From contig NZ_AP018560.1 in assembly GCF_003967035.1 (NCBI RefSeq), positions 1,139,001 to 1,203,000 of the forward strand: a stretch of 64,000 nucleotides of DNA, given 5' to 3'. The notes under the pieces were generated by a model. It had not been told where the DNA came from. It did no database searches and saw nothing but the letters and a program-made list of their open reading frames with translations. Shown in pieces: positions 12,921-33,836 of the stretch. Numbering within the stretch: position 1 is the stretch's first letter; every line of letters begins with the position of its first letter. This DNA comes from Aerosticca soli (GTDB taxonomy: Bacteria; Pseudomonadota; Gammaproteobacteria; Xanthomonadales; Rhodanobacteraceae). Both the position numbers and the translations under genes were made by a program.

Positions 12921-13652
12921 ATGTCAACGGTAAAATCAGTGCCCGAAGCCGACGCCGCTATATCCACGCCGCCCAGCGGCACCTCCAGGCAGGAGCCGCG
13001 CAGCCTGATCGAACAGGCTTTCCAGCGGCTGCGGGCCGACATCCTGCATGGGCGACTGCCGGCCGGATCCAAGCTGCCCATCGATGAAATCAAGGCGCGT
13101 TATCAGGTCAGCGGCGGTACCCTGCGCGAGGCGCTCAGCCTTCTGGTCTCCGACGGGCTGGTCAAGGCACAGGCGCAGCGCGGCTTCCAGGTGGCGCCGA
13201 TGTCGCTGGAGGACATGCGTGACCTCGCCAGGACCCGCGTGCTGCTGGAAGGCGAGGCGGTACGCCTCAGCGTCCAGCATGGCGATGTCGACTGGGAAGC
13301 ACGGCTGGTTGCCGCGTTTCATCGGCTGTCGTTGATCGAAGAACGCACCATGCGCGATCCGGTGACCTATTTCGAGCAGTGGGAGCAGGACAACCGCGCC
13401 TTCCACGAGGCGCTCATTTCGGCCTGTCCGTCGAGCTGGATGTTGCGTTTCATCGGCGTGCTCTATGTGCAGATGGAGCGCTATCGGCGCTTCACCTCGA
13501 CGCACAACCCGCCGGCGCGCAACGTCCACGACGAACATCGCGCGCTGCTGGACAGCGCCCTGAAGCGCGATGCGACGCGCTGTGCGGACATGCTGCGTGC
13601 GCACATCGAGTCGTCCATTGACGTCGCCGTGCATGTCGGCGCACTGGGTTGA
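12921..13652 (+). CDS. GntR/FCD-family transcriptional regulator of the catabolic block (BphR1/BphS-like)
   Basis: 243 residues. The N-terminal winged helix-turn-helix is at about residues 30-95 (PIDEIKARYQVSGGTLREALSLLVSDGLV, then the wing QRGFQVAPM). The C-terminal FCD ligand domain follows, with its helical metal-binding pattern (DNRAFHEALI; RAHIESS). The ATG at 12921 is preferred over one at 12807 because AGGAAG lies 8 bases before it and it matches the family length. GntR regulators of this size sit at the head of biphenyl operons (orf0/bphR1, bphS). Here it is 4 bases ahead of the reductase gene. A palindrome upstream may be its operator. It is the only regulator in the block. Confidence 0.85.
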   Translation: MSTVKSVPEADAAISTPPSGTSRQEPRSLIEQAFQRLRADILHGRLPAGSKLPIDEIKARYQVSGGTLREALSLLVSDGLVKAQAQRGFQVAPMSLEDMRDLARTRVLLEGEAVRLSVQHGDVDWEARLVAAFHRLSLIEERTMRDPVTYFEQWEQDNRAFHEALISACPSSWMLRFIGVLYVQMERYRRFTSTHNPPARNVHDEHRALLDSALKRDATRCADMLRAHIESSIDVAVHVGALG

Positions 13653-13656
13653 GGCG

Positions 13657-14913
13657 ATGACCAACCACGCGCCAAAACCCGGCACCATCGTCATCATCGG
13701 CGCAGGACTGGCCGGCAGCATGACCGCCCGTGCCCTGCGCGCGGCCGGCTATACCGGACGCATCTGCCTGATCGGCGAGGAGCCTATCGCCGCCTACGAC
13801 CGCCCGTCGCTGTCCAAGACGGTGCTGGCCGGCGAACACGAGCAGGCGCCGGCGATCCTCGAGCCGGACTGGTACGCGAACAACGGCATCGAACTGCTGC
13901 TGGGCAAGCGCGTCACTGCGATCGAGCCTGAGCTGCATCGCGTGCACATCGAATCCTCCGAACCTTTGAACTACGACCGGCTGGTGCTTGCCACCGGCGC
14001 GCACGCGAGGCAGATGCGCGTGCCCGGGGTGACATTGCCCGGCATCCATCGCCTGCGTCACCACGTGGACAGCGTGGCCTTGCGTGCCGCGCTGCGGCCG
14101 GGAAGTGCGCTGGTCGTCGTCGGCGGTGGCCTGATCGGCTGCGAAGTCGCCACCACGGCGCGCAAGGCCGGTGTCGAGGTGACCCTGCTCGAGGCTGCGG
14201 ATGAACTCATGACCCGCGTGCTTGGCCGGCGCATCGGCCGCTGGTGCCGGGGCGAGCTGGAACGGCTCGGTGTGCAGGTACGGCTCGGCGCCCAGGTCGA
14301 GCGCTTCGAGGGCCAAGACCGTGTCGAGGCGGTGGTCTGTAAGGATGGCAGCCGCGTCGAGGCGGATGCGGTGTTGATCAGCATCGGCGCCGAGCCGGCC
14401 GACGAGCTGGCGCGTGCGGCCGGTATCGCCTGCGAGCGCGGCATCCGCGTCGATGCCACCGGCGCCACCTCCGCGCCCGACGTGTATGCAGTCGGCGACG
14501 TGGCCGCCTGGCCGTTGCGCGGCGGCGGCCAGCGCTCGCTGGAAACCTATCTCAACAGCCAGGCGCAGGCCGAGGTGGTGGCCGCCGCGCTGCTCGGTCA
14601 GGCGGTGCCGGCGCCGCAGGTGCCGACCTCGTGGACCGAGATCGCCGGGCACCGCATCCAGATGGTGGGCGATCCGGAAGGGCCCGGCGAAATCGTTACC
14701 CGTGGCGATGCCGAGGCCGGCAGCCCGCTCATCGTCTTCCGGGTCGACGGCGACCACGTCGAGGGCGCCATCGCCATCGATGCGTCGCGGGAGTTCTCGG
14801 TGGCCAGTCGGCTGGTCAATGCCCGCACGCCGGTGTCGCCCAGGGCGCTTGGTGATCCATCGGTCAATCTGCGCGATCTGCTGAAACCCGCCGCAGCGGC
14901 GGCACGCGGCTGA
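13657..14913 (+). CDS. bphA4: Ferredoxin--NAD(P)+ reductase of a ring-hydroxylating oxygenase system (BphA4-like)
   Basis: 418 residues, FAD-dependent pyridine nucleotide-disulfide-type fold. The FAD site GAGLAGSMTARAL is near residue 13, the NAD site VVGGGLIGCEVATTARKAG is near residues 152-170, and the second FAD segment DVYAVGDVA is near 275-285. Reductases of this class move electrons from NADH to a Rieske ferredoxin. It lies 4 bases after the regulator and 36 before bphC, where LB400-type operons have bphA4-bphB-bphC; bphB is missing. It is the only oxygenase reductase in the block and may serve all three oxygenases through the ferredoxin at 28985. Confidence 0.88.
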   Translation: MTNHAPKPGTIVIIGAGLAGSMTARALRAAGYTGRICLIGEEPIAAYDRPSLSKTVLAGEHEQAPAILEPDWYANNGIELLLGKRVTAIEPELHRVHIESSEPLNYDRLVLATGAHARQMRVPGVTLPGIHRLRHHVDSVALRAALRPGSALVVVGGGLIGCEVATTARKAGVEVTLLEAADELMTRVLGRRIGRWCRGELERLGVQVRLGAQVERFEGQDRVEAVVCKDGSRVEADAVLISIGAEPADELARAAGIACERGIRVDATGATSAPDVYAVGDVAAWPLRGGGQRSLETYLNSQAQAEVVAAALLGQAVPAPQVPTSWTEIAGHRIQMVGDPEGPGEIVTRGDAEAGSPLIVFRVDGDHVEGAIAIDASREFSVASRLVNARTPVSPRALGDPSVNLRDLLKPAAAAARG

Positions 14914-14949: not shown

Positions 14950-15867
14950 ATGAGCGTGAGAAGTCTGGGTTATCTGGGTTTCGCGGTGAAAGACGTCCCG
15001 GCCTGGCGTGATTTCATGACGGCCAAGCTTGGCCTGCAGGAAGTCGCCGGCGATGCGGAAGGCGCGCGCTACCGGCTGGATTCGCGGGCCTGGCGCATCG
15101 CCGTCGAGGCGGGCGAGGAAGACGACCTGGCCTATGCGGGCTACGAGGTGGCCGATCCCGCCGAGCTCACGCAGATGGCCGAACGGCTGCGTGGCGCCGG
15201 GGTTGCGGTGACCGAGGGCGACGCGGCGCTGGCCAAGCGGCGCGGCGTGCTCGGGCTCATCACGTTCACCGATCCCTTCGGCCTGCCGCTGGAGATCTAC
15301 TACGGCCCCAGCGAGGTCTTCGAGCATCCGTTCACGTCGCCGGCCGGGGTGTCGGGTTTCCGCACCGGCGAACAGGGCCTCGGACATTTCGTGCGCTGCG
15401 TGCCCGATACGCAGAAGGCGTTGGCCTTCTACACCGAGGCGCTGGGTTTCCAGTTGTCGGACGTGATCGACATCAAGGCCGGTCCCCAGGTGGTGGTGCC
15501 GGCGTACTTCCTGCACTGCAACGGCCGCCATCACACCCTGGCGCTGGCGTCCTTTCCGCTGCCGCGGCGCATCCACCATTTCATGATCGAGGCCAACACG
15601 CTGGACGACGTGGGTCTCGCCTATGACCGCATCGCCGCCGAAGATCGCATCACCATGACCTTCGGGCGGCACAGCAACGACCACATGGTGTCGTTCTACG
15701 CGGTCACGCCATCGGGTTTCGATGTCGAGTTCGGCTGGGGGGCGCGCGCGGTGGAACCCGGCTGGACGGTGGTGCGCCATGACGCCATCAGCGTGTGGGG
15801 GCACAAGCCGGTTCGCCAGAGCGCGCCGGCGCCCGGCCGCATCATCCTCAACGGAGAGCCCGCATGA
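14950..15867 (+). CDS. bphC: BphC, 2,3-dihydroxybiphenyl 1,2-dioxygenase
   Basis: 305 residues, two-domain type I extradiol dioxygenase. It inserts O2 next to the diol of a 3-substituted catechol, giving a yellow HOPDA-type product. The Fe(II) ligands are His146, His210 and Glu260, and the active-site residues His195, His241 and Tyr250 are present, all at the numbers I recall for the LB400 enzyme; the overall match to that protein is close (MSVRSLGYLGFAVKDV start; GLGHFVRCVPD). Its stop overlaps the bphK start (ATGA). The enzyme normally needs BphB upstream, absent here, so its catechol must come from another dehydrogenase or a hydroxylase. Substrate breadth cannot be judged. Confidence 0.95.
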   Translation: MSVRSLGYLGFAVKDVPAWRDFMTAKLGLQEVAGDAEGARYRLDSRAWRIAVEAGEEDDLAYAGYEVADPAELTQMAERLRGAGVAVTEGDAALAKRRGVLGLITFTDPFGLPLEIYYGPSEVFEHPFTSPAGVSGFRTGEQGLGHFVRCVPDTQKALAFYTEALGFQLSDVIDIKAGPQVVVPAYFLHCNGRHHTLALASFPLPRRIHHFMIEANTLDDVGLAYDRIAAEDRITMTFGRHSNDHMVSFYAVTPSGFDVEFGWGARAVEPGWTVVRHDAISVWGHKPVRQSAPAPGRIILNGEPA

Positions 15868-16469
15868 AACTCTACTACAGCCCCGGTGCCTGCTCGCTCT
15901 CACCGCACATCGCGCTGCGTGAAAGCGGCCTGCCTTTCGAACTCGTCCGCGTCGATCTCAAGACCAAGCAGACCGAGGACGGCCGCGACTACCGCTCGAT
16001 CAACCCGGCCGGCTACGTGCCACTCCTGGAGCTCGATGATGGCCACACCCTGAGCGAAGGCCCGGCGATCCTGCAGTACGTCGCCGACCAGGCGCCGGCC
16101 AAGCATCTGGCGCCGCCCAATGGAAGCTTCGAGCGCTACCGCTTGCAGCAGTGGCTCAATTTCATCGCCACCGAGCTGCACAAGAACTTCAGTCCGCTGT
16201 TCAGGCCCGACACCACCGACGAGGGCAAGCAGGCGGCGGTGCAGATGCTCGGCAACCGCTTCGAGGTGGTCGCCGCGCAGCTTGCGCAGAGCCCTTATCT
16301 GCTCGGCAACGAGTTGAGTGTCGCCGACATCTATCTCTTCGTGGTGCTGAGCTGGACCCGTTATGCGGGCATCGATCTGGCGCAGTGGCCCGCGCTCAAG
16401 GCCTTCATGGAGCGCGTCGGCAGCCGCGAGGCCGTGCGCGCCGCGTTGCAGGCCGAAGGCCTGGCCTGA
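15864..16469 (+). CDS. bphK: BphK, beta-class glutathione S-transferase
   Basis: 201 residues. The thioredoxin-like N-terminal domain starts MKLYYSPGACSLSPHIALRE with the beta-class Cys10; the SEGPAILQYVAD segment binds glutathione, and the helical C-terminal domain follows. BphK proteins sit inside biphenyl operons and have been linked to glutathione-dependent dechlorination of HOPDA-type metabolites, but are not required for growth on biphenyl. It overlaps bphC by 4 bases. Its retention in exact operon order argues that the segment came as a unit from a biphenyl-type operon. Confidence 0.93.
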   Translation: MKLYYSPGACSLSPHIALRESGLPFELVRVDLKTKQTEDGRDYRSINPAGYVPLLELDDGHTLSEGPAILQYVADQAPAKHLAPPNGSFERYRLQQWLNFIATELHKNFSPLFRPDTTDEGKQAAVQMLGNRFEVVAAQLAQSPYLLGNELSVADIYLFVVLSWTRYAGIDLAQWPALKAFMERVGSREAVRAALQAEGLA

Positions 16470-16501
16470 CCTTGGAAAGGCACCTCGAGAACCCTTCGAC
16501 C

Positions 16502-17290
16502 ATGACGACGACTCCCGACCTCATCCAGACGCTGGGCGATGAGCTCTACCGCGCCTTCAGCGAGCGCACCACCGTCGAGCCGCTGACGAACCGGCACCCC
16601 GGGCTTTCCATCGAGGACGCCTACCTCATCCAGCAGCGCATGATCGCCCGCCGCCTGGAGCAGGGCGAGCGCGTCATCGGCAAGAAGATCGGCGTCACCA
16701 GCCAGGCGGTGATGGACATGCTCGGCGTCTATCAGCCGGACTTCGGCTACATGCTCGACGGCATGATGGTGGCCGACGGCGATGCCGTGCCCATGGACAC
16801 GCTGATCCAGCCCAAGGCCGAGGGCGAGATCGCCTTCGTGCTCAAGCGCGACCTCGAGGGCCCCGGCGTGACCAACGCCGACGTGCTGCGCGCGACCGAC
16901 TTCGTGATGCCTTGCTTCGAGATCGTCGATTCGCGCATCCGCGACTGGAAGATCCGCATCCAGGACACCGTGGCCGACAACGCCTCCTGCGGGGTGTTCG
17001 TGCTCGGCAGCACCGCCGCTGACCCGCGCAAGCTCGACCTCACCACCTGCGGCATGGTGCTGGAGAAGAACGGCCGCATCGTCGGCACCGGCGCCGGCGC
17101 CGCCGCGCTCGGTTCGCCGATCAATGCCGTCGCCTGGCTCGCCAACACGCTGGGCAAGCTCGGCATCGGCCTCAAGGCCGGCGAAGTGATCCTTTCCGGC
17201 GCGCTGGCGGCAATGTGCCCGGTCCAGGCCGGCGACCAGTTCCGCGTCCGCCTGGGCGGGATCGGCACCTGTTCGGTGTCGTTCCACTAG
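16502..17290 (+). CDS. bphH: BphH, 2-hydroxypenta-2,4-dienoate hydratase
   Basis: 262 residues, MhpD/BphH family in the FAH-like hydratase-decarboxylase superfamily. It adds water to 2-hydroxypenta-2,4-dienoate to give 4-hydroxy-2-oxovalerate. Typical segments are [26 protein letters not shown], the metal-binding [10 protein letters not shown] with its Glu, FEIVDSRI, and the C-terminal [15 protein letters not shown]. The ATG at 16502 is chosen because it gives the family length; a longer frame upstream overlaps bphK. It forms the usual H-J-I trio with the next two genes. Confidence 0.94.
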
Positions 17291-17324
17291 GCGGCATTTT
17301 CCAAAAAAGACTCAAGGCTTTCCC

Positions 17325-18257
17325 ATGACCCAGAAAATCCGTGCGGCACTGATCGGTTCGGGCAACATCGGCACCGACCTGATGGCCAAGGCGCTGCGTT
17401 CGCCGCTGATCGAGCCGGTCTGGATGGTCGGCATCGACCCGACTTCCGAGGGGCTGGCCCGTGCCCGTGCGGCCGGGCTCAAGACCACCGCCGAGGGCGT
17501 GGACGGCCTGCTGCCGCATTTGGCCGAGGATGGCGTGCAGATCGCCTTCGACGCCACCTCCGCCTATGTGCATGCGGAGAACGCCCGCAAGCTGCAGGAG
17601 CGCGGCGTGCTGATGATCGACCTCACGCCGGCGGCGATCGGCCCGTTCTGCGTGCCGCCGGTGAACCTCAAGGACCACATCGGCAAGCACGAGATGAACG
17701 TCAACATGGTCACCTGCGGCGGGCAGGCGACCATTCCCATGGTGGCCGCGGTGAGCCGCGTGCAGCCCGTGGACTACGCCGAGATCATCGCCACCGTGGC
17801 CTCGCGCTCGGCCGGTCCGGGCACGCGCAAGAACATCGACGAGTTCACCCGCACCACCGCGCGCGCGGTGGCCGAGGTGGGCGGCGCGCGCAAGGGCAAG
17901 GCGATCATCATCCTGAATCCGGCCGAGCCGCCCTTGATCATGCGCGACACCGTGCATTGTCTGACCGCGGACGAGCCCGACCAGGCCGCCATCACCGAGT
18001 CGGTGCAGCGCATGCTGGCCGAGGTGCAGCGCTACGTACCGGGCTACCGGCTCAAGAACGGCCCGGTGTTCGACGGCAAGCGGGTATCGATCTTCCTCGA
18101 GGTCGAGGGCCTGGGCGACTACCTGCCCAAGTACGCCGGCAACCTCGACATCATGACCGCCGCCGCGCTGCGCACCGCGGAAATGTTCGCCGAGGAGATC
18201 CTCAAGGGCGCGTTCGTGCCCCGTCCGTCCACGCCTGCCGTCGCCGAGACGGCCTGA
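17325..18257 (+). CDS. bphJ: BphJ, acetaldehyde dehydrogenase (acylating)
   Basis: 310 residues. It oxidises acetaldehyde to acetyl-CoA with NAD+ and CoA, receiving it from the aldolase through a protein tunnel. The Rossmann motif [17 protein letters not shown] is at the N-terminus and the catalytic cysteine lies in [14 protein letters not shown] (about residue 129). RNTK-like tail segments and the [10 protein letters not shown] region fit the family. It lies between the hydratase and the aldolase; the aldolase starts 19 bases later, consistent with equimolar synthesis of the complex. Confidence 0.95.
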
Positions 18258-18276
18258 ATCATCCGGAGACTTCCCC

Positions 18277-20221
<1,945 letters not shown>

Positions 20222-20239
20222 CGAGCTGATCTTAAAAAA

Positions 20240-20269
20240 ACCGCGTGCCGGCCGGGCCGGCGCACGCAA
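20240..20269 (+). terminator. Hairpin after bphD (weak terminator or processing site)
   Basis: GCGTGCCGGC at about 20243-20252 can pair with GCCGGC and ACGC at about 20255-20266 with a two-base bulge. No T-run follows on the plus strand, so it is a poor intrinsic terminator. It sits in a 197-base gap between bphD and the next hydrolase, the largest gap in the front half of the block. Confidence 0.3.
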
Positions 20270-20418
20270 ACCCAAACCCTGGGATTTCCATGCCATGTCG
20301 ATGGCGGTGGGGAGCCTTTTCAACCCGAAGAAATGCAAACGCCCAGCCGACTCAAGCCAAGCACCAAGCGGCACCCGTCAGGCCAAGACCGACTTTCCAC
20401 TTTTTTACGGAGTAGCGC

Positions 20419-21306
20419 ATGAATTCGACGATCTGGACCGATTTGCTCGGCGTCCCGTTCCAGCAGAGATTTTACAACGTGGCCGGCCATCGCACACGCG
20501 TGCTCGAGGCGGGCGAGGGCGCGCCGCTGGTGTTTCTGCACGGCACCGGCGGACATGCCGAGGCCTACATGCGCAACATCGCCGAGCACGCCAAGCATTT
20601 CCACGTCTACTCGATCGACATGCTGGGCCACGGCTATACCGACAAGCCGGCCGATGCCGATTACACGATGGCGCTGTGGTCCGACCACATCGTCGCGTTC
20701 CTGGACACCATCGGCGCCAAGCGCGCCAGCTTGTCCGGCGAGTCGCTCGGCGCCATGGTCTCGGCGTGGACGGCGATCCGCCATCCGCAGCGCGTCGCCA
20801 GCCTGGTGATGAACACCGGCATCCTGGCCCCGCCCAACGAGAAAGGCCGCGCCGAGCTGCTGGACGTGCTGGAGCGTTCCAGGAAGGCGGCCGGCCAGCT
20901 CACCCGCGAGGCGGTGAAGGCCCGCATGCAGTGGTTGATGTTCGAGCCGGAAAAGACCCTCACCGACGAGATCATCGACATCCGCTTCAAGATCTACAGC
21001 CAGCCTGGCATGGCTGCGGTCATGGGCAAGATCGCCGCCACGGTGCTCGGCGGCGTGACCGACGAGGCCTTCTGCCGCCGCTGGATGAACCCCGAAGTCA
21101 TGCGCGACATCCAGTGCCCGACGCTGGTGCTGTGGACGCGCCACAACCCGGGACAGCCGGTCGAGCTGGCTCAGGAGGCCATGAAATTCATCCCGCGGGC
21201 CGAGCTGGTCGTGCTCGAGCACAGCGCGCACTGGCCGCAGTGGGAGGAACCGGAAAACTTCAACGCGGCGCACCTGGAGTTTTTGCGCAAGTCGGTAGCC
21301 GCCTGA
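20419..21306 (+). CDS. Second C-C-type alpha/beta hydrolase (meta-cleavage product hydrolase family)
   Basis: 295 residues. HGTGGH at residues 41-46 is the oxyanion region and Ser109 in SGESLGAM is the nucleophile; the His of LEHSAHWPQWEEPE is the general base. At the position where BphD has its catalytic Asp (four residues after Trp in WGRDD) this protein has Asn243 (WTRHNPGQP). It is clearly distinct from BphD next door. From context I infer it hydrolyses a different ring-cleavage product, probably the alkyl or acyl dienoate made by the extradiol enzyme at 25198 and the decarboxylase at 26891, as CmtE does in the cumate pathway. Exact substrate unknown. Confidence 0.75.
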   Translation: MNSTIWTDLLGVPFQQRFYNVAGHRTRVLEAGEGAPLVFLHGTGGHAEAYMRNIAEHAKHFHVYSIDMLGHGYTDKPADADYTMALWSDHIVAFLDTIGAKRASLSGESLGAMVSAWTAIRHPQRVASLVMNTGILAPPNEKGRAELLDVLERSRKAAGQLTREAVKARMQWLMFEPEKTLTDEIIDIRFKIYSQPGMAAVMGKIAATVLGGVTDEAFCRRWMNPEVMRDIQCPTLVLWTRHNPGQPVELAQEAMKFIPRAELVVLEHSAHWPQWEEPENFNAAHLEFLRKSVAA

Positions 21307-23415: not shown

Positions 23416-24690
23416 ATGCACGAGCTTTCCCGTTTTACCGCGTTGCGCGTGGACACCAAGGCCAACACCTTCAAGGTGCCGCGCGCGGCTTTCGTCAGGC
23501 CCGAGGTGCTGGAGGCGGAGCGCGAGCGCATCTTCAACCGCTGCTGGCTCTATCTCGGCCATGCCTCGGAGATCGCCAAGCCCGGCCAGTTCGTCACCCG
23601 CACCGTGGCCGGCCGCACGCTGATCTTCAACCGCACCCAGAAGGGCGAGGTGCGCGCCTTTCTCAACACCTGTCCGCACCGCGGCGCCACCGTCTGCCGC
23701 GAGAAGGCCGGTAGCGCCAAGCATTTTCAGTGCATCTACCACGGCTGGGTTTTCGACGACAACGGCAAGATCGCCGACCAGCCGGGTCAGGACTCCTATG
23801 CGTCCGGCTTCAACGAGCGCGGCGAGGCCAACCTCAAGCCGCCGCCGCGGCTGGAGGAATACCGCGGCCTGTATTTCGTCTGCTTCGACAAGGACGCGGT
23901 CGATCTGGCGACCTATCTCGGCGCAGCGCGCGAGTACATCGACCTGATCGTCGATCAAAGCGAGTCGGGCATGGTGATACTCGGCGGTACGCAGGAATAC
24001 AGCATCAACGCCAACTGGAAGCTGCTGGTCGAGAACAGCATCGACGGCTACCACGCCGCGACCACCCATGCCACCTACATGGATTACCTCAAGAACACCG
24101 CCGGCGCATTGGCGGCGACCGGGGTGGCCGGCGTCGGTCGTGATCTCGGCAACGGTCACGCGGTGATCGAGTATTCGGCGCCCTGGGGGCGGCCGATCGG
24201 ACAGTGGATTCCCGCCTGGGGCGAGAGTGGCAAGGCCGAGATCGAGCGCATCGTCGCCGGCCTCACGAAGCGCTTCGGTGAGGAGCGGGCCAAGCGGATC
24301 GCGCTCAAGAACCGCAATCTGCTGATTTTCCCCAACCTGATCATCAACGACATCATGGCGATCACGGTGCGCACGTTCTATCCGCTGGCGCCGGATCTGC
24401 TGCACGTGAATGCCTGGGCGATGGCGCCGGCCGAGGAGAGCGAGGCGGCGCGCAAGACGCGGCTCGAAAACTTCCTGGAATTCATCGGTCCCGGCGGTTT
24501 CGCCACGCCCGACGACGTCGAGGCGCTGCAGAACTGCCAGGTCGGTTTCAGCAATGCCGACCAGGTGCCCTGGAACGACATCTCCAAGGGCATGGGCAAG
24601 CCCGCGCCGTTTGCCGACGACGAGGAACAGATGCGCGGCTTCTGGCGCGGCTGGGATGCGCGCATCAACTCCGCCGACAACGCCCGCTGA
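23416..24690 (+). CDS. Ring-hydroxylating oxygenase 1, large (alpha) subunit
   Basis: 424 residues. The Rieske [2Fe-2S] ligands are Cys86, His88, Cys106 and His109. The mononuclear iron site has Asp210 (bridging), His213 and His218 in [14 protein letters not shown], with a C-terminal carboxylate in ATPDDVEA. It belongs to the aromatic-carboxylate type (benzoate/cumate-like) by overall pattern. Its own small subunit, an extradiol dioxygenase, an SDR and an ACMSD-like decarboxylase follow with overlaps or tiny gaps. That order matches a p-cumate-like pathway, so I infer 2,3-dioxygenation of a ring carboxylate. Substrate not proven. Confidence 0.85.
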
Positions 24691-24699
24691 GGAATGGCC

Positions 24700-25185
24700 A
24701 TGCAAACCTTCACCCGCCCCGAGCTTGAAGATTTCTTCTATGCCGAAGCTGCGCTGCTGGACGACTGGAAGCTGACCGAATGGCTGGCGCTGTTCACCGA
24801 GGACGCCCGCTATGAGGTGCCTTCCACCGACCTGCCGCGCGATGCCCAGGCCAGCACCAACCTGTTCTACATCGCCGATGACGCCTTTCGGCTCTCCGAG
24901 CGCGTCAAGCGGCTGCTCAAGAAGACCGCACACGCCGAATACCCGCGGCCGAAGACCCGCCACGTGATCAGCAACGTGCGCATCCTCGCCAATGAAGGCG
25001 ACCGCTGCCAGGCGAGCGCCGTCTTCGTCACCTACCGTTCCAAATCCGGCCATACCGACACCTACATCGGCATTGCCGACTACCACCTCGTCCGCACCGG
25101 CGACGGACTGCGCATCCGCAGCAAGCGCTGCACGCTGGATCTGGACTCGCTGCGTCCGCACGGGCGCGTCAGCATCATCCTCTGA
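24700..25185 (+). CDS. Ring-hydroxylating oxygenase 1, small (beta) subunit
   Basis: 161 residues, SnoaL/NTF2-like fold of oxygenase small subunits. FYAEAALLDDWKLTEWLALFTEDARYEVP and KTRHVISNVRIL are the usual landmarks. The ATG at 24700 is preferred over 24694 because the GAGGA just after the alpha stop is correctly spaced only for the second. It forms an alpha3beta3 hexamer with the upstream subunit by analogy. Confidence 0.85.
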   Translation: MQTFTRPELEDFFYAEAALLDDWKLTEWLALFTEDARYEVPSTDLPRDAQASTNLFYIADDAFRLSERVKRLLKKTAHAEYPRPKTRHVISNVRILANEGDRCQASAVFVTYRSKSGHTDTYIGIADYHLVRTGDGLRIRSKRCTLDLDSLRPHGRVSIIL

Positions 25186-25197
25186 AAGGTATTTCCC

Positions 25198-26109
25198 ATG
25201 AGCCTTCCCTTCCGTTACCGCAAGCTGGGCTACGTCGCCCTCAACGTCACCGACGTCGCACGCACCACGGCCTTCTATACCGACATCGTCGGGCTGGAGC
25301 TTTCCGACGCCGTTCCCGGTGGCCCGGCCTTTCTGCGCTGCAGCTCGGACCACCACAACATCGCGCTGTATCCGGCCGCCGCGCCCGGCCTCAAGCGGGT
25401 GGGTTTCGAGCTCGAAAGCCAGCGCGAGATGGAGCGTGCGCGCCGGCACCTGGAAGGCCTCGGCCTGGCCGTGGAGGAGATCGGCAAGGAAGAGCGCGCG
25501 CAGCTGCGCCAGGAGGACGGCCTGCGCTTCATCGAGCCGCATTCGGGCCTGACCATGGAGTTCTACACGCGCATGCTGAACATGGCGCAGCCGTTCGTGC
25601 CGCGTCTGGCCAAGATCGCGCGGCTGGGCCACGTGGTGCTGGCGGTGGAGCGTTTCGAGGAAATGGCGAGGTTCCTGCACGAGAACCTCGGCTTTGCCAT
25701 TTCCGATTTCGTCCAGGGCGCGGTGGTGTTCATGCGCTGCCAGCCCAATCCGTATCACCACACCTTTGCGGTCGGTCGTTCCAGCGGCGGCAACCATCTG
25801 CACCACGTCAACTTCATGGTCACCGACGTCGACGACATCGGCGTGGCCGTGAACCGGCTCAACAAGGCGCAGATACCGATCGTGTTCGGCCCCGGCCGCC
25901 ACAAGCCCTCGGGCAGCATCTTCCTCTACTACCTCGATCCGGACGGCATGACCGTCGAGTACAGCTTCGGCATGGAGGAGTTCCCCGAGCACGACTACCG
26001 CGAGCCGCGCGTGCTCGAGCCGCATCCGCTTTCGCTCGACCTGTGGGGCGGTCTGCCCAAGCCGGGCTTCGCCAAGGTGGGCCAGATCGAGCACGAGGAA
26101 CAGGCATGA
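25198..26109 (+). CDS. Type I extradiol ring-cleavage dioxygenase (VOC), CmtC-like role
   Basis: 303 residues, two VOC domains. The catalytic C-terminal domain has candidate Fe(II) ligands His145 (ARLGHVVLAV), His203 (NHLHHVNFMV) and Glu254 (GMTVEYSF). The N-terminal domain lacks the first ligand, as is normal in this two-domain class. It is clearly different from BphC. Placed between oxygenase 1 and the SDR/decarboxylase pair, it most likely opens a 2,3-dihydroxy ring carboxylate next to the diol. Alternative: a catechol 2,3-dioxygenase for another ring. Its stop overlaps the SDR start (ATGA). Confidence 0.8.
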   Translation: MSLPFRYRKLGYVALNVTDVARTTAFYTDIVGLELSDAVPGGPAFLRCSSDHHNIALYPAAAPGLKRVGFELESQREMERARRHLEGLGLAVEEIGKEERAQLRQEDGLRFIEPHSGLTMEFYTRMLNMAQPFVPRLAKIARLGHVVLAVERFEEMARFLHENLGFAISDFVQGAVVFMRCQPNPYHHTFAVGRSSGGNHLHHVNFMVTDVDDIGVAVNRLNKAQIPIVFGPGRHKPSGSIFLYYLDPDGMTVEYSFGMEEFPEHDYREPRVLEPHPLSLDLWGGLPKPGFAKVGQIEHEEQA

Positions 26110-26894
26110 GCACGCCGGCGCAGGCCTGGGCCAGCCGCGCGCGTCCGCATGAGGGGCGCGTGGCCATCGTCACCGGCGCGGCCGGCGGCATCGGCCTTGA
26201 AATCGCGTTGAGGCTGGGCCGCGACGGCGCCGCGCTGGTGGTGGCCGATGCCGATGCGGCGCGGCTGGAGACCGCCGCCGGCGCCTTGCGCGACACCGGC
26301 GCCGAGGTGCGGGCGATGCCCGGCGACCTGTCGCTGGAAGACACCGCCACGGCTCTTGCCGCGTGCGCACTGGAGGCTTTCGGGCGCATCGACATCCTGG
26401 TCAACAACGCCGGTGGCGGGGTGATCCTGCCGTTCCTCGCGCACACCCCGCAGACGCTCAAGCAGACCATCGACCGCAATCTGTGGACCACGCTGTGGTG
26501 TTGCCGGGCGGTGATTCCGCCGATGAAGGAGCGTGGCTACGGCCGCATCGTCAACATCGGCGCCGACTCGGTGCGCAATGGCCTGTGGGATCACGCCGCC
26601 TACAACGCCGCCAAGGGTGGCGTGCACGGTCTGACCACGGGGCTTGCCCGCGAGTTCGCGCGCGACGGCATCACCGTCAACACGGTCGCTCCGTGTGCGG
26701 TCAACACGCCGCAGCTGGTGGACATCGCCAAGCAGCATCCGGCGCTGGTCGAGCGTTTCGTCAGCGTCATTCCGATGGGGCGCGCCGGCGAAATGGCCGA
26801 GGTGGCCTCGATGGTGAGTTATCTCGCCGGCACCGAGGCCTCGTTCGTCACCGGCCAGGTGATCAGCGCCAACGGCGGCAGCACGATGCTATGA
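26106..26894 (+). CDS. SDR dehydrogenase, probable cis-dihydrodiol dehydrogenase
   Basis: 262 residues, classical short-chain dehydrogenase. The coenzyme motif TGAAGGIG, NNAGGG, the catalytic Tyr and Lys in YNAAKGG, and the C-terminal FVTGQVISANGGSTM are all visible. In this operon it should oxidise the cis-dihydrodiol made by oxygenase 1 to a catechol. It is the only SDR in the block, so it may also replace the missing BphB. The ATG at 26106 overlaps the preceding stop; the next gene overlaps its stop. Confidence 0.85.
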   Translation: MSTPAQAWASRARPHEGRVAIVTGAAGGIGLEIALRLGRDGAALVVADADAARLETAAGALRDTGAEVRAMPGDLSLEDTATALAACALEAFGRIDILVNNAGGGVILPFLAHTPQTLKQTIDRNLWTTLWCCRAVIPPMKERGYGRIVNIGADSVRNGLWDHAAYNAAKGGVHGLTTGLAREFARDGITVNTVAPCAVNTPQLVDIAKQHPALVERFVSVIPMGRAGEMAEVASMVSYLAGTEASFVTGQVISANGGSTML

Positions 26895-27934
26895 GGCACT
26901 TCGAGGCCATCGACGTGCACACCCACGTCGTCCCGCGCGAATTTCCGCCCTACCGCGGCCGGCATGCCGGCGTGCGCTGGCCGTCGATGGCCGAGGCGCA
27001 GCCGTGCCATCGCCACGTGATGCTGGACGGCGCGATCTATCGCACGGTGTCCCATCAATGCTGGGACGCGGACGTGCGTGGCGTGGACATGGAGCGCATG
27101 GAGATCGGCATGCAGGTGCTCTCGCCGATGCCCGAGCTGCTTTCGTACTGGCTGGAAGGCGAGGACGGCCAGCATCTGGCGCGTCACGTCAACGAATCCA
27201 TCGCCGCGATGGTGCAGGCGGCGCCCGGGCGCTTTGCCGGTCTCGGCATGGTGCCGCTGCAGGATGTCGGGCGCGCGATCGACGAGCTGGACGTGCTGCT
27301 CCATCAGCTGGGGCTTGCCGGCGTCGAACTGGGCAGCAACGTGCAGGGCGTGCCGGTCGGCGACGCGCGCTTTCTGCCGTTCTTCCAGGCTGCCGAGCGC
27401 TGGGGCGCGGCGGTGTTCGTGCATGCGCTGCGCCCTTGCGGCATGGACCGTCTGGTCGGCCCGCCGGTGCTCGAGCAGGCGCTCGCCTTTCCCGGCGAAG
27501 TGGGCCTTGCCGCCGCCTCCATGATCACCGGCGGCACATTGGCCGCGTGTCCGGACCTGCGCATCGCCTTCAGCCACGGCGGCGGCACGTTCGCATTGCT
27601 GCTGCCGCGGCTGCGCCATGCATGGAAGAGCTTTCCGATGCTGAAGGAGGCACTTGCCGCCGATCCGCTGGAGGCCGCGCGGCGCATGTACTACGACGCC
27701 CTGGTCTACGACCAGACGGCGTTCGGTTTCCTGCTCGATAGTTTCGGCGCCGAACGGCTGATGCTCGGCAGTGATTACCCCTTCGCGATCATGGAATCGC
27801 ATCCGCTCGCCTGTCTTGCGGGCCTGCCCGAGTCGACGCGCACGGCGATCGCGCGGGACAACGCGCTGCGCTGGCTGCGGGGCGCCGCCACGGCGCAGGA
27901 GCGCGGGAAGCCGTCTTTGGGAGATACGCCATGA
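26891..27934 (+). CDS. ACMSD-like amidohydrolase, probable decarboxylase of a carboxylated meta-cleavage product
   Basis: 347 residues, amidohydrolase_2 fold. The zinc and catalytic residues align with aminocarboxymuconate semialdehyde decarboxylase with a one-residue shift: His10 and His12 (DVHTHVVP), His178 (FVHALRP), His229 (FSHGGGTF) and Asp295 (LGSDYPF), plus the RTVSHQCWD segment. ACMSD removes the carboxylate beside the new carbonyl of a ring-cleaved 3-hydroxyanthranilate. An analogous substrate would arise from extradiol cleavage of a 2,3-dihydroxybenzoate, so I infer it does the job that CmtD (an unrelated fold) does in cumate degradation. It overlaps both neighbours by 4 bases. Confidence 0.8.
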   Translation: MRHFEAIDVHTHVVPREFPPYRGRHAGVRWPSMAEAQPCHRHVMLDGAIYRTVSHQCWDADVRGVDMERMEIGMQVLSPMPELLSYWLEGEDGQHLARHVNESIAAMVQAAPGRFAGLGMVPLQDVGRAIDELDVLLHQLGLAGVELGSNVQGVPVGDARFLPFFQAAERWGAAVFVHALRPCGMDRLVGPPVLEQALAFPGEVGLAAASMITGGTLAACPDLRIAFSHGGGTFALLLPRLRHAWKSFPMLKEALAADPLEAARRMYYDALVYDQTAFGFLLDSFGAERLMLGSDYPFAIMESHPLACLAGLPESTRTAIARDNALRWLRGAATAQERGKPSLGDTP

Positions 27935-28947
27935 ACGCCCTCATCATCGAAAAGCTGCGCATCGACCCCGCCCGCCGTGCGCGGGTCGGCATCGTCATCG
28001 GCGACGTCAACGGCATCGGGCCGGAAGTGGTCGCCAAGTCCTGGCAAAGCGGCTTGCTGCACGAGGCCTGCCTGCCGGTACTGATCGGCAGTGCCGCCGC
28101 CATGGAGCGCGCCGTCGCCGCGCTCGGCATGGACGTGGGTGTGCGCGCCATCGCCGGCCCCGACGAGGCGCGGTTCGACCCCAAGGTGATGGACGTCATC
28201 GACAGCGGCGCGTTGGACCCGGCGGCCATCACGCCCGGCCGCGACACCGCCGCCAGCGGACGCGCCGTCGGCATCTGGCTCGGCGAGGCCGATCGCCTGG
28301 CCCGCGCCGGCGCGCTCGGGGCGACGGTGATGGCGCCGGTGAGCGCGGTCGCGCTGGAGATGGCCGGCATGCTGGACCGCATCGTCAGCGTCAAGCCGGG
28401 CGAAACCTACCTCGTGCTGTTTTCCGGCGCGCTGCGCATCACCCATCTGACCGACCACGTGCCGTTGCGCGAGGTCTCGGGGATGATCCACAAAGATCTC
28501 ATCGCACTCACCTTGCACAAGATGGATGCCGCGCTCAGGCAGTGGGGTATCGCCGCGCCGCGCATCGCGGTGGCCGGTTTCAACCCGCACGCCAAGGGCA
28601 CCGAGGACAGCCAGGAGATCGCGCCCGGCGTCGCCGCGGCCAAGCGCGAGGGCATCGACGTGACCGGCCCGGTGAGTCCCGACTCGGTCTTCCGCCATTG
28701 CCTGGAAGGCCGCTACGACATGGTGCTGGCCATGTACCACGACCAGGGCCACATCGCGATCAAGACCGCCGGTTTCTCCGGCAACGTCGCCGTGTTCCTG
28801 GGCCCGCCCTATCCGCAGGTCACCGTGGCTCACGGCACCGCCTACGACATCGTCGGTCGCGGCATCGCCGACCACAGCATGGTGTTGAACGCCATTCTCA
28901 CCGCCGGCTCGCTGGCCGCGGGCAACGCCTTTCCCGATCTGCACTGA
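27931..28947 (+). CDS. PdxA-like dehydrogenase, possible decarboxylating dihydrodiol dehydrogenase
   Basis: 338 residues. PdxA-family landmarks: IVIGDVNGIGPEVV, HLTDHVPL, GFNPHAKGTEDSQE, YHDQGHIAIK and HGTAYDIVGRG; the metal-binding histidines of the first, second and third of the later motifs are kept. The GFNPHAGE segment of true PdxA reads NPHAKG here, and an operon of aromatic genes is no place for vitamin B6 synthesis. TphB, which decarboxylates terephthalate dihydrodiol, is a known PdxA relative, so a similar reaction on the product of oxygenase 2 (a 1,2-dihydrodiol carboxylate) is plausible. Alternative: a sugar-acid phosphate dehydrogenase of the PdxA2 type. Confidence 0.7.
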   Translation: MNALIIEKLRIDPARRARVGIVIGDVNGIGPEVVAKSWQSGLLHEACLPVLIGSAAAMERAVAALGMDVGVRAIAGPDEARFDPKVMDVIDSGALDPAAITPGRDTAASGRAVGIWLGEADRLARAGALGATVMAPVSAVALEMAGMLDRIVSVKPGETYLVLFSGALRITHLTDHVPLREVSGMIHKDLIALTLHKMDAALRQWGIAAPRIAVAGFNPHAKGTEDSQEIAPGVAAAKREGIDVTGPVSPDSVFRHCLEGRYDMVLAMYHDQGHIAIKTAGFSGNVAVFLGPPYPQVTVAHGTAYDIVGRGIADHSMVLNAILTAGSLAAGNAFPDLH

Positions 28948-28984: not shown

Positions 28985-29362
28985 GTGAGTTCGCAAGCTT
29001 CCTACCGCTTCATCGCCCACACCGCCGACGTGCCGGCCGATCGCGCGCTGGCCGTCGTGCTGCCGGGGTATCCGCCGCTGGCGGTCGCGCGCCTGGGCGA
29101 TGAGTTCTTCGTCATGGACGACACCTGCACCCACGGTGCGGCGCTGCTGTCGGACGGCGAGATCATCGAGAACGAAATCGAGTGTCCCTTCCACGCCGGG
29201 CGTTTCGACATCCGCACCGGCGAGGCCACGGCCTTTCCCTGCGCCAAGGCCCTGCGCGTGTATCCCACGCGCGTGGAGGACGGCGCCGTGCTGGCCGACC
29301 TCGACGCACAAGGCGCCGGCACGGGCTGTGCCGGAGGCTGCCATCAGACGGCCACCGCCTGA
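28985..29362 (+). CDS. Rieske ferredoxin of the oxygenase systems (BphA3-like)
   Basis: 125 residues, GTG start preceded by AGAGG. Rieske ligands are Cys48 and His50 (CTHGA) and Cys67 and His70 (CPFHAG). Small soluble ferredoxins of this kind pass electrons from a BphA4-type reductase to an oxygenase. It is the only one in the block, 14 kb from the reductase at 13657, just upstream of oxygenase 2. The C-terminal 20 residues (GAGTGCAGGCHQTATA) are Gly/Ala-rich with two extra cysteines and look like a non-conserved tail. Confidence 0.88.
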   Translation: MSSQASYRFIAHTADVPADRALAVVLPGYPPLAVARLGDEFFVMDDTCTHGAALLSDGEIIENEIECPFHAGRFDIRTGEATAFPCAKALRVYPTRVEDGAVLADLDAQGAGTGCAGGCHQTATA

Positions 29363-31379: not shown

Positions 31380-32585
31380 GTGAAGAAAGACAGCAGTGTC
31401 GTGATCGTGGGCGCAGGTCCGGTGGGCATGATCAATGCCCTCGGGCTCGCGCGTGCCGGGGTCGACGTGACCGTGCTCGAGACGCATCCGGGCATCGTGC
31501 CCGAGCCGCGCGCGATGACCTACCACTGGACCGTGCACGAGGGCATGAAACGCCTCGGGCTGCTCGATGACATGCTCACCGAGGGTTTCAAGGTGCCGGA
31601 GATGTGCTACCGCATCTTCGCCACCGGCGAGGTGATCCGCTTCAACATCGGCGCGATCGCCGACTACACGCCGTATCCGTACGCCATCTCGCTGGGGCAG
31701 GACCAGCTCGAGGGCATCGTGCTTCGGCATCTGGCCGACTATCCCAATGTCCAGATCCACTGGAACACCACCATGACCGATCTCGTCCAGGACGAGCACG
31801 GCGTCACCGTCACCGCCGAGCGCGACGGCCAGCCGGTGACCTACCGCGCCGACTGGGTGATCGGTGCCGACGGCGGACGCAGCCGCGTGCGCAAGGCGAT
31901 CGGCGTGGAGTTCCTCGGCATGACCTGGCCGCAGCGTTTCGTCGCCACCAACGTGGTGTATGACTTCGAGAAATACGGCTGGGGCGTGGCCAATTATCTG
32001 GTCGACCCCAAGTACGGCGCGGTGATCGCCAAGGTCACCCGCTCGGGCATCTGGCGCGTTACCTTCAGCGAGGATGCCAGCGGCACGCTGGAGGGCATCG
32101 AGGATCGCATCCGCGCCTTCTACGCCAAGGTCTTTCCGGGTCCCGAGCCCTACGAGATCAAGCTCTATTCGGTCTACAACATGCACCAACGCTGGGCGGA
32201 GAGGTTCCGCGTCGGCCGCGTGCTGCTGGCCGGCGATGCCGCGCACCTGACCAATCCGACCAACGGCTTCGGCCTGGTCTCGGGCATGCTCGATTCGCAG
32301 GTGCTCTATGAGGCGCTCGCTGCCGTGATCAAGGGCGAAGTGGACGACAGCGTGCTCGACCAGTATTCGCGCGATCGCCGCCGCGCCTTCGAGGAAGTCG
32401 CTTCGCCCTCCTCGGTGGAGACCAAGCGCTTCGTGTTCCATTCCGACGACCCGGAACGCTTCAAGGCCGATCTGGAGCGCATGCGCCGCATCGCCAACGA
32501 CCCGGAACTCCTGCGTCAGCAGTTGATGATCGGTCACCGCATGCAGACGCCGTCGCTGGTCAAGCCGTCCGGTCTCGCCGCGTAA
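31380..32585 (+). CDS. FAD-dependent aromatic hydroxylase A (MhpA/PheA-type)
   Basis: 401 residues, GTG start. The FAD site GAGPVGMINALGLARAG is at residues 11-27, the DG motif GADGGRSRVRKAIG at about 162-175, and the GD motif GDAAH at about 283-287. After that the usual MPPFxGQG stretch of MhpA-type enzymes reads LTNPTNGFGLVSGML, so the isoalloxazine-side loop differs. Such enzymes hydroxylate phenols using NAD(P)H and O2, giving catechols or hydroquinones without a Rieske system. The next gene is a close paralogue. Substrate unknown. Confidence 0.8.
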   Translation: MKKDSSVVIVGAGPVGMINALGLARAGVDVTVLETHPGIVPEPRAMTYHWTVHEGMKRLGLLDDMLTEGFKVPEMCYRIFATGEVIRFNIGAIADYTPYPYAISLGQDQLEGIVLRHLADYPNVQIHWNTTMTDLVQDEHGVTVTAERDGQPVTYRADWVIGADGGRSRVRKAIGVEFLGMTWPQRFVATNVVYDFEKYGWGVANYLVDPKYGAVIAKVTRSGIWRVTFSEDASGTLEGIEDRIRAFYAKVFPGPEPYEIKLYSVYNMHQRWAERFRVGRVLLAGDAAHLTNPTNGFGLVSGMLDSQVLYEALAAVIKGEVDDSVLDQYSRDRRRAFEEVASPSSVETKRFVFHSDDPERFKADLERMRRIANDPELLRQQLMIGHRMQTPSLVKPSGLAA

Positions 32586-32624
32586 GGCGAGGCCACCGAT
32601 TCGGATACGGATTAGGACTACTCC

Positions 32625-33836
32625 ATGAGCGATACCGCAACGACCCGCAGCAGCGTACTCATCGTCGGCGCCGGCCCGGTGGGCATGATCAACGCGCTTG
32701 GCCTGGCCCGCGCCGGGGTGGACGTCACCCTGATCGAGGCCAACGCGCAGATCGTGCCCGAACCGCGCGCGGTCACCTACCACTGGGCCGTGCTCGAAGG
32801 CATGGACCGGCTCGGCCTGCTCGAGGACATGCTGGTCGAGGGCTTCAAGCTGCCGGACATCTGCTATCGCATCTTCCGCACCGGTGAAATCATCCGCTTC
32901 CGCATGGATGCGCTGGAGGGCTTCACCCCGTATCCGTACATCGTGCAGCTGGGCCAGGACAGGCTGGAAGCGATCGTGCTCCGGCATCTGGCCGCCTATC
33001 CCAACGTGCGGATCGACTGGCGCACGCGCATGCAGGGACTGGTGCAGGACGAACACGGCGTCACCGTGACCGCCGAGCGCGATGGCCATCCGGTGACCTA
33101 TCGCGCCGACTGGGTGATCGGCGCCGACGGCGCGCGCAGTGCGGTACGCAAGTCCCTCGGCGTCGATTTCGTCGGTATGACCTGGCCCGAGCGTTTCGTC
33201 GCCACCAACGTGGAATACGACTTCGGCCGCCACGGCTGGGACCTGTGCAACTACGTCATCGACCCGTCGTTCGGCGCGGTGGTCGCGCTGGTCACGCCGC
33301 CGGCGGTCTGGCGCGTCACCTTCAGCGAGGACGCCAGCCTGCCGCTGGAAGGCATCGAGGATCGCATCCGCGCCTTCTATGCGCGCATCTTCCCCGACCC
33401 CGATCAGGGTTACACGATCAAGCAGTATTCGGCCTACAGCATGCACCAGCGCGTGGCCGAGAAGCTGCGCGTGGGACGCGTGCTGCTCGCCGGCGACGCT
33501 GCGCATGCCACCAATCCGACCAACGGCTTCGGCCTGGTCTCGGGCATGCTCGATTCGCAGGTGCTTTACGAGGCGCTCGCCGCAGTGGTCAAGGGCGAGG
33601 CGCCGGACAGCGTGCTCGACCGCTACGCGGCCGATCGCAAGCGCGTGTTCGAGGAAATTGCCTCGCCGAGCTCGGTCGAGACCAAGCGCCTGGTGTTCCA
33701 TTCCAGCGATCCGGAGCGACTGGAACAGGATTTGCAGCGCCTGCGCCGCGTGGCCGCCGACCCCGATCTCCTGCGTGCGCAGTTCATGATCGGCTACCGC
33801 CTGAAGACGCCCTCCGTGCTGGCCGAGCCGGCATGA
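32625..33836 (+). CDS. FAD-dependent aromatic hydroxylase B, tandem paralogue of A
   Basis: 403 residues. Nearly every landmark of the preceding protein recurs (GAGPVGMINALGLARAGVDVT, EPRAVTYHW, VIGADGARSAVRKSLG, GDAAHATNPTNGFGLVSGMLDSQVLYEALAAV), so the two arose by tandem duplication. Differences concentrate in residues about 65-110 and 190-240, likely substrate-facing regions. The pair might act on two successive intermediates or on two related phenols, or form a heterodimer. A 36-base gap separates the genes. Confidence 0.8.
   Translation: MSDTATTRSSVLIVGAGPVGMINALGLARAGVDVTLIEANAQIVPEPRAVTYHWAVLEGMDRLGLLEDMLVEGFKLPDICYRIFRTGEIIRFRMDALEGFTPYPYIVQLGQDRLEAIVLRHLAAYPNVRIDWRTRMQGLVQDEHGVTVTAERDGHPVTYRADWVIGADGARSAVRKSLGVDFVGMTWPERFVATNVEYDFGRHGWDLCNYVIDPSFGAVVALVTPPAVWRVTFSEDASLPLEGIEDRIRAFYARIFPDPDQGYTIKQYSAYSMHQRVAEKLRVGRVLLAGDAAHATNPTNGFGLVSGMLDSQVLYEALAAVVKGEAPDSVLDRYAADRKRVFEEIASPSSVETKRLVFHSSDPERLEQDLQRLRRVAADPDLLRAQFMIGYRLKTPSVLAEPA

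Follow-up and report, generated by a model that had tools for sequence, protein, structure and literature searches.

An ACMSD-like amidohydrolase as a probable ring-fission decarboxylase in a p-cumate-type gene cluster of Aerosticca soli

Decarboxylation of a 3-carboxy ring-fission product has been shown, from spectra of the expressed enzymes, for OpaD of the o-phthalate degrader Pseudomonas sp. PTH10; with 2,3-dihydroxybenzoate, a maximum at 343 nm gave way to one at 375 nm as the carboxylate was lost. The opa genes were reported in 2019 to be required for growth (PMC6362003). OpaD, which shares 30% identity with NbaD, is an ACMSD-family decarboxylase that acts directly after the type I extradiol dioxygenase (EDO) OpaC, in place of DhbB, a member of the class II aldolase family (PMC6362003). 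The cym/cmt systems for p-cumate of Pseudomonas putida F1 and Burkholderia xenovorans LB400 have oxygenase alpha and beta subunits, an EDO, a short-chain dehydrogenase/reductase (SDR), and then a decarboxylase, the order in LB400 being cmtAaAbAcCBAdD-cymR-EFHG (PMC5224996). PraH of Paenibacillus sp. JJ-1b, from the 2,3-cleavage pathway of protocatechuate, is reported to act on the 5-carboxy isomer, unlike the enzyme proposed here. The present analysis concerns positions 23416-27934 of a 64,000-nucleotide stretch of Aerosticca soli (hereafter the window; positions 1139001-1203000 of the complete 2.87-Mb genome), where an ACMSD-like zinc amidohydrolase probably performs the step that belongs to CmtD in p-cumate degradation.

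Gene order and the proposed pathway

The segment contains five open reading frames, all of which are genuine and belong to the families named in a first-pass annotation, with Pfam scores far over cut-off. They encode a Rieske oxygenase alpha subunit with PF00355, PF00848, and the Rieske and Fe motifs (RHOa1, CmtAb-like by order; 23416-24690, +), a beta subunit (RHOb1; 24694-25185, +; PF00866, 106 bits), a type I EDO proposed to cleave the 3,4 bond of a 2,3-dihydroxybenzoate (EDO2; 25198-26109, +; PF00903), an SDR that is a candidate cis-dihydrodiol dehydrogenase (CmtB-like by order; 26106-26894, +; PF13561/PF00106), and the ACMSD-like amidohydrolase (26891-27934, +; PF04909), a candidate decarboxylase of the 3-carboxy ring-fission product. 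The genes had been described as packed with 4-base overlaps, which is the case at two of the four internal junctions (ATGA at EDO2/SDR and SDR/amidohydrolase), whereas 3 bases separate the alpha and beta genes and 12 bases separate the beta and EDO2 genes; another ATGA overlap, outside the segment, joins the amidohydrolase to a PdxA-like gene. Similarly, the segment was said to hold the enzyme set of p-cumate degradation, but it holds only part of it, with the remainder at 13.5-21.3 and 29 kb. Judged by family assignment, the full p-cumate-type set is present in the surrounding catabolic island, scattered over 13.5-29.4 kb, and the predicted hydrolase, hydratase, aldolase, and acetaldehyde dehydrogenase, all of which are known from the cmt operon, lie at 16502-21306.

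Two loci, L067 (from the same family as the genome of the window) and L069, are ordered reductase-alpha-beta-EDO2-SDR-ferredoxin-class II aldolase-TetR-hydrolase-hydratase-acetaldehyde dehydrogenase-aldolase. This is the published cmt order, with the class II aldolase at the place of CmtD and TetR at that of CymR; likeness to the cmt operons of F1 and LB400 was judged by gene order and published lengths, while named plasmid records and other genomes supplied the sequences compared. As in L067 and L069, a decarboxylase comes after the alpha-beta-EDO-SDR block of the window, whose proteins are each 53-64% identical to their counterparts there, with 62% and 58% for RHOa1 to the alpha subunits of L067 and L069, respectively, and 63-64% for the SDR. 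Unlike the cmt operons, however, the window has the ACMSD-like gene directly after the SDR in place of CmtD, a protein of the class II aldolase family; next come a PdxA-like gene and another oxygenase. The class II aldolase domain PF00596, present in the counterpart of L038, is absent from the window protein, in which only PF04909 was found.

In common with the opa cluster, the window has an ACMSD-superfamily protein with the zinc residue set beside an EDO. The opa cluster has a BenD-like SDR, a DhbA-like EDO of 285 residues, and a semialdehyde dehydrogenase, whereas the window, compared with it by published description, has an EDO of 303 residues (29% identical to the DhbA-like EDO of a class II cluster), the cmt order, and C-C hydrolases.

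In the p-cumate-type meta-cleavage route that we consider probable, the oxygenase (23416-25185), with a ferredoxin and a reductase, would convert a benzoate, probably 4-substituted, to the cis-2,3-dihydrodiol, which the SDR would re-aromatise to a 2,3-dihydroxybenzoate. EDO2 would then cleave the 3,4 bond to yield a 2-hydroxy-3-carboxy-6-oxo-hexa-2,4-dienoate, from which the ACMSD-like zinc enzyme would take off the C3 carboxylate, and a C-C hydrolase, a hydratase, an aldolase, and an acetaldehyde dehydrogenase would complete the pathway. We infer the substrate, the position of cleavage, and the activity; loss of a C3 carboxylate needs cleavage of the 3,4 bond. The first-pass annotation had likewise proposed decarboxylation of a ring-fission product, a proposal that is retained, but it had placed the carboxylate next to the new carbonyl, whereas the one lost would stand on C3 beside the C2 enol. 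In EDO2, His145, His188, His203, His235, Tyr244, and Glu254, judged against the BphC residue numbering, are invariant in 11 of 11 aligned orthologues. A semialdehyde dehydrogenase was not found in the window (tautomerase and oxalocrotonate decarboxylase were not searched for), and two C-C hydrolases are present; this combination suggests a ketone as the ring-fission product, and hence a 4-substituted benzoate is favoured.

The amidohydrolase and its subfamily

The solved structure nearest to the amidohydrolase is human ACMSD (1.5e-54, 188.7 bits), with 103 of 322 aligned residues identical; bacterial ACMSD chains score 112-120 bits, carboxyvanillate decarboxylase 73, and LigY 29. The predicted fold gives Z scores of 43.4 with human ACMSD and ~40.7 with bacterial ACMSD, compared with ~34 for carboxyvanillate and dihydroxybenzoate decarboxylases and 30 for the C-C hydrolase LigY. 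No NCBIfam model matched at E <= 0.001. In the alignment, the four zinc ligands (His10, His12, His178, and Asp295) correspond to human His6, His8, His174, and Asp291, so that the ACMSD fold and the four residues proposed for it at the outset are confirmed by alignment, by PF04909, and by the predicted fold. Also conserved are His229 (human His224), Arg51 (human Arg47), and Arg240 (human Arg235, contributed by the neighbouring subunit), i.e., all seven of the zinc-binding and catalytic histidine and arginine set. By analogy with ACMSD, zinc would be held by His10, His12, His178, and Asp295, and the zinc-bound water would be activated by His229, while Arg51 and, in the dimer that we infer, Arg240 of the neighbouring subunit would grip the two carboxylates of the substrate head. 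This head is expected to carry two carboxylates as in 2-amino-3-carboxymuconate semialdehyde (ACMS), with a hydroxyl group replacing the amino group. In Pseudomonas ACMSD, the two equivalent arginines are essential and have been modelled as holding the two carboxylates of the substrate (PMC11650718).

The enzyme thus resembles human and Pseudomonas fluorescens ACMSD in fold, zinc ligands, histidine, and both substrate arginines, but differs from them in the pocket. Human Trp176, Trp188, Trp191, and Arg243, which contact the inhibitor TES-1025 (PMC9021598), are replaced by Leu, Val, Gln, and Phe in the window protein. Because these four residues are lost, the predicted substrate fit must differ from that of ACMSD. 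Its neighbours differ as well, being an EDO and oxygenases and not the 3-hydroxyanthranilate dioxygenase associated with ACMSD.

This combination of residues characterises a whole group of proteins from aromatic-degradation clusters. None of 27 such sequences departs from the five metal/water residues or from either arginine, and all 27 lack the three pocket tryptophans and the Arg243 equivalent (the partial sequences of L036 and L066 were left out of the residue table and of the ACMSD tree). The same pocket residues are kept in human ACMSD and in 17 of the 19 other genome relatives; in the two exceptions, L002 and L005, they are lost together with the Arg47 equivalent. In the computed tree, the 27 cluster sequences form a clade of their own (100/100) that includes neither human ACMSD nor any of the 19 other relatives. 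On alignment, the loss of the tryptophans and the arginine sets this putative subfamily apart from ACMSD proper.

The neighbourhoods follow the same division. When the ACMSD-like protein served as bait, all 17 loci retrieved had an EDO, among them those of Pseudoxanthomonas spadix (77%), Hydrogenophaga aromaticivorans, and Xenophilus azovorans. Across all 29 ACMSD-like loci examined, an EDO lies within 10 kb in every case, although nine of them were found via EDO2, and only the 17 are an independent count. The same search of the other ACMSD relatives gave an EDO in none of 16 loci and a 3-hydroxyanthranilate dioxygenase in six, the remaining loci being presumably of the kynurenine type; these longer stretches cover 16 of 19 kin loci, five of the 19 having 3-hydroxyanthranilate dioxygenase within short flanks, and the 16 include L092 and L093, which are of the divergent kind without the Arg47 equivalent.

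The partner dioxygenases belong to several lineages, i.e., EDO2, DhbA-like, BphC-like, and the unrelated LigB fold, and a further type occurs in Rhizobium together with a 3-hydroxyphenylpropionate-hydroxylase-like gene and in Tardiphaga and Bosea together with similar ones. Because the partners span several lineages, the ACMSD-like protein travels with ring cleavage itself and not with one particular dioxygenase. The LigB-fold pairing was observed in L026, L027, and L035. In L062, L063, and L064, from the class of the L037 genome, the oxygenase-EDO2-SDR-ACMSD block occurs together with BphC- and BphD-like genes, as in the window, a combination that hints at a shared two-ring or two-stage substrate.

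Exchange of decarboxylases and alternative explanations

That an ACMSD-type enzyme stands in place of CmtD, as the first-pass annotation had suggested, is supported by comparison of loci found with EDO2 as bait. The searches covered 399 genomes of the family of the L022 genome (5 matches), 385 of the class of the L037 genome (7), 233 of the window's own family (2), and a plasmid collection (5 records at >= 45%). Loci were counted when EDO2 identity reached at least 44% over 240 residues, more distant EDOs being excluded and a second Sphingopyxis plasmid (H52) standing outside the count. Among the 18 loci thus obtained, the ACMSD-like gene is present in 13 and a class II aldolase in three, two have neither, and none has both; after removal of the three search-centre genomes (n = 15), the numbers are 10, 3, 2, and 0, and with EDO2 loci from other baits included (n = 22), they are 16, 4, 2, and 0, all of these counts overstating independence because the sequences are related (L023 and L024 have identical EDO2 and identical ACMSD proteins). 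The same oxygenase-EDO-SDR set therefore occurs elsewhere with a class II aldolase (L038, L041, L067, and L069), and no locus examined has both decarboxylases. A class II aldolase was present in 34 genomes of a Burkholderiaceae search; 14 regions from 13 genomes were examined, and EDO2 was found in only one of these class II regions, L069.

In the EDO2 tree, both decarboxylase types fall inside one dioxygenase lineage, where well-supported branches force at least one change of the class II label and the best tree requires two. A second pairing involves Caballeronia and three other genomes (L045, L068, L070, and L071), in which an oxygenase, a hydrolase, and a PdxA-like gene accompany a class II aldolase; in Cupriavidus (L026 and L027), a related oxygenase and hydrolase (60-66%) and a PdxA-like gene are found with the ACMSD-like gene and a LigB-type dioxygenase, which points toward the same swap. 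In the genome of the window, a search with the L038 class II aldolase gave no match, an empty answer that is weak evidence, and the same query does match in other genomes.

With regard to regulation, the published CymR operator (10-N6-10) was sought across 1.08 Mb of loci. Allowing <= 4 mismatches of 20 gave three sites, each with three mismatches: two stand a short distance ahead of the reductase genes of L067 and L069, and the third stands 75 bases ahead of the oxygenase gene of L059, a cluster of the ACMSD type. In six first-order Markov controls, the counts were 0, 1, 0, 0, 0, and 0 at <= 4 mismatches, and there were no sites at <= 3. In addition, the TetR proteins of the ACMSD-type loci L022, L024, L043, L058, and L059 share 32-36% identity with their L067 and L069 counterparts; the TetR of L024 retrieved only generic TetR matches in a PDB search, the best at 43 bits. 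As predicted from sites and regulators, some ACMSD-type clusters, and not the window itself, are tied to cumate-type control.

Besides the relatedness that inflates the counts above, several observations weigh against the proposed decarboxylase role and pathway. First, Trp191 (Pseudomonas Trp194), which is listed among the residues crucial to the decarboxylation of ACMS and bonds to a carboxylate of the malonate ligand (PMC11650718), and Trp188, described as catalytic (PMC9021598), are lost in all 27 cluster sequences. Because of these losses, the mechanism need not equal that of ACMSD, from which it may differ in detail, and our confidence was slightly lowered, the reading still being probable. 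The predicted local distance difference test score (pLDDT) is below 50 for residues 182-199, around two of the lost tryptophans, and the pocket comparison therefore rests on the sequence alignment and not on the model. Second, L060 and L061 carry EDO2 and neither decarboxylase, the class II branch is weakly placed in the EDO2 tree (84/95, 83/86), and the ACMSD-like gene is remote in L065 (36%, ~6 kb) and L066 (partial, 9.5 kb, at the edge of the stretch). Third, class II homologues occur elsewhere in three of the 17 genomes of the amidohydrolase-bait loci (G105, Cupriavidus, 1.7e-68; G110, Bosea, 1.7e-73; and G114, 7.5e-11, weak), none of which has EDO2 in the ACMSD-like locus examined; the two decarboxylase types are exclusive per locus, not per genome. 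Fourth, a CymR-like operator at <= 5 mismatches is absent from the window and from Pseudoxanthomonas, three more sites appear at five mismatches, a level without a control (L046, a second in L069, and L058, the last ~70 bases before the oxygenase gene), and the TetR of the class II locus L038 is closer to the ACMSD-type TetRs (33-38%) than to those of L067 and L069 (25-28%). Finally, the putative substrate is read from gene order only, and a semialdehyde dehydrogenase gene elsewhere in the genome makes an unsubstituted substrate possible.

This last point leads to a tentative alternative, in which the decarboxylation is the same but the substrate is 2,3-dihydroxybenzoate itself (R = H), formed, as in the opa pathway, from o-phthalate or benzoate; the resulting 2-hydroxymuconic semialdehyde would go on to a dehydrogenase or to hydrolysis. 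OpaD does exactly this step (PMC6362003), the genome encodes a dehydrogenase at 960 kb that is 66% identical to that of pNL1, within a meta-cleavage cluster at 945-975 kb that also has a catechol 2,3-dioxygenase scoring over its cut-off, and the neighbouring PdxA-like gene is distantly related to terephthalate dihydrodiol dehydrogenase, which suits a dicarboxylate. On the other hand, the window itself offers two C-C hydrolases and not that dehydrogenase, and the nearest class II relatives have the cmt order and a hydrolase. Moreover, a cmt operon of strain EB200 is without such a dehydrogenase, which has been put forward as a possible cause of the strain's failure to grow via 2,3-dihydroxybenzoate (PMC12442788).

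It is unlikely that the amidohydrolase decarboxylates an intact aromatic acid, as do LigW and the gamma-resorcylate and 2,3-dihydroxybenzoate decarboxylases, with EDO2 then opening a catechol. Decarboxylation of intact aromatic acids is also known for some enzymes of the class II aldolase family, so the swap alone is compatible with such a sequence of events, and LigW and the other decarboxylases named above are next nearest in sequence and fold. However, ACMSD is clearly closer (188.7 vs. 73 bits; Z 43 vs. 34), the Arg51/Arg240 pair, which in ACMSD binds the carboxylates of a ring-opened head, is kept in 27 of 27 sequences, and the gene sits at the cmt place of CmtD, a decarboxylase of a ring-fission product.

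A genuine ACMSD of tryptophan breakdown, located here by chance, is highly improbable. Human ACMSD is indeed the closest named relative, and the genome has a 3-hydroxyanthranilate dioxygenase and no second ACMSD-like gene (E 0.001); yet that dioxygenase lies ~850 kb away, the clade and pocket residues are unlike those of human ACMSD and most genome relatives, and the gene overlaps the SDR and comes after the EDO in an association kept across genera. The kynurenine role was rejected on distance, clade, and pocket residues. The 3-hydroxyanthranilate 3,4-dioxygenase gene (G000:C1:2018768-2019241; L056) scores over its curated cut-off. A LigY-like C-C hydrolase acting without decarboxylation is equally hard to sustain and was rejected on similarity, since LigY, although of the same superfamily and in the match lists, is far more distant than ACMSD (29 vs. 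188.7 bits; Z 30 vs. 43), the arginine pair is kept, and the island already has two ordinary C-C hydrolases.

Other genes of the island and implications

The catabolic island extends over ~12.8-40.3 kb and is flanked by tsf and rpsB (9.6-11.4 kb) on one side and by glnD (40.3 kb) on the other. Upstream of the decarboxylase block, it encodes a ferredoxin reductase of the HcaD/AndAa-like type (13570-14913, +; PF07992 and PF14759; NCBIfam NF042949 at 319 bits, under the cut-off of 450), a possible electron donor to the oxygenases, and a BphC-type EDO, the second of the island (14950-15867, +; TIGR03213 at 411.6 bits, over the cut-off of 366). These are followed by a predicted 2-hydroxypenta-2,4-dienoate hydratase with an inferred start (16502-17290, +; PF01557 on the longer frame 16151-17287), which is 46-48% identical to fumarylacetoacetate-hydrolase-family genes at the equivalent position in L038, L040, and L043, an acylating acetaldehyde dehydrogenase (17325-18257, +), and a 4-hydroxy-2-oxovalerate aldolase (18277-19320, +), the latter two open reading frames being 57-59% and 58-60% identical, respectively, to the annotated acetaldehyde dehydrogenases and DmpG of the same loci. 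A stretch of 2022 bases (17276-19297), comprising the acetaldehyde dehydrogenase and most of the aldolase, has a 98.2% identical second copy at 957-959 kb, within a catechol meta-cleavage cluster of the same genome, and is a recent duplication or gene conversion.

The two hydrolases are a BphD-type C-C hydrolase with a GNSMG motif (19361-20221, +; TIGR03343 at 564.7 bits, over the cut-off of 462) and a second alpha/beta hydrolase (20419-21306, +; PF00561). The latter is CmtE-like by position in relatives, with 35% identity to the hydrolase at the CmtE position of L067 and L069 and 93% to that of the same operon in Pseudoxanthomonas spadix, where the conserved span of the operon begins with the second hydrolase and takes in the third oxygenase and the protein that follows.

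Downstream lie the PdxA-like dehydrogenase (27931-28947, +; PF04166, 236 bits) and a Rieske-type ferredoxin (28985-29362, +; PF00355; NF041683 at 88.6 bits, under the cut-off of 150). The PdxA-like gene adjoins the decarboxylase in L021, L022, L023/L024, L058, and L059, and, together with a second oxygenase, it is kept alongside the decarboxylase in the nearest clusters. Its best match among solved relatives is D-threonate 4-phosphate dehydrogenase (191.5 bits), terephthalate dihydrodiol dehydrogenase (4aty) being weaker (100 bits). Relatives at ~54% identity occur on sphingomonad plasmids, where they are annotated as 4-hydroxythreonine-4-phosphate dehydrogenase and, in pNL1, stand between two oxygenase pairs. 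The protein is possibly an uncharacterised dihydrodiol dehydrogenase.

The island further contains a DUF1302 protein, two more oxygenases, two flavoprotein hydroxylases, a fumarylacetoacetate-hydrolase-type protein, and a coenzyme A ligase. The flavoprotein hydroxylases adjoin each other at 31380-33836 and are relatives of 3-(3-hydroxyphenyl)propionate hydroxylase; at ~400 residues each, they are shorter than the matched models (520-568 positions). The Pseudoxanthomonas spadix locus examined lacks FAD2, the fumarylacetoacetate-hydrolase-type gene, and the ligase. The island closes, at 38225-40256, with a fusion of carboxymuconolactone decarboxylase-like and glyoxalase-like domains, followed by another glyoxalase-like protein.

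Replacement by an ACMSD-family enzyme is not new in principle, because OpaD is a proven precedent. A literature search that did not reach most subscription journals looked for reports of an ACMSD-type decarboxylase within a cumate-type operon and gave OpaD as the only direct precedent; within that literature, the swap in a cumate-type operon and the tryptophan-less subfamily appear not to be in print. More broadly, the tryptophan-less ACMSD-like subfamily could be an interchangeable part for meta-cleavage decarboxylation, paired with several unrelated dioxygenases, which replaced, or was replaced by, CmtD at the same operon position, and the product of the island could feed BphD, making biphenyl-4-carboxylate or a similar 4-aryl benzoate a possible substrate; the arguments for and against this wider proposal seem to us evenly balanced. 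With a phenyl group as R, decarboxylation would yield what BphD of the island naturally acts on.

The locus offers a natural case of two unrelated protein folds serving one catabolic step at the same operon position. It also suggests a candidate rule, namely that two kept arginines, lost pocket tryptophans, and a nearby EDO indicate a ring-fission decarboxylase, which would separate such enzymes from genes annotated merely as "amidohydrolase family protein". Better pathway prediction for aromatic pollutants and for plant- or plastic-derived acids would follow.

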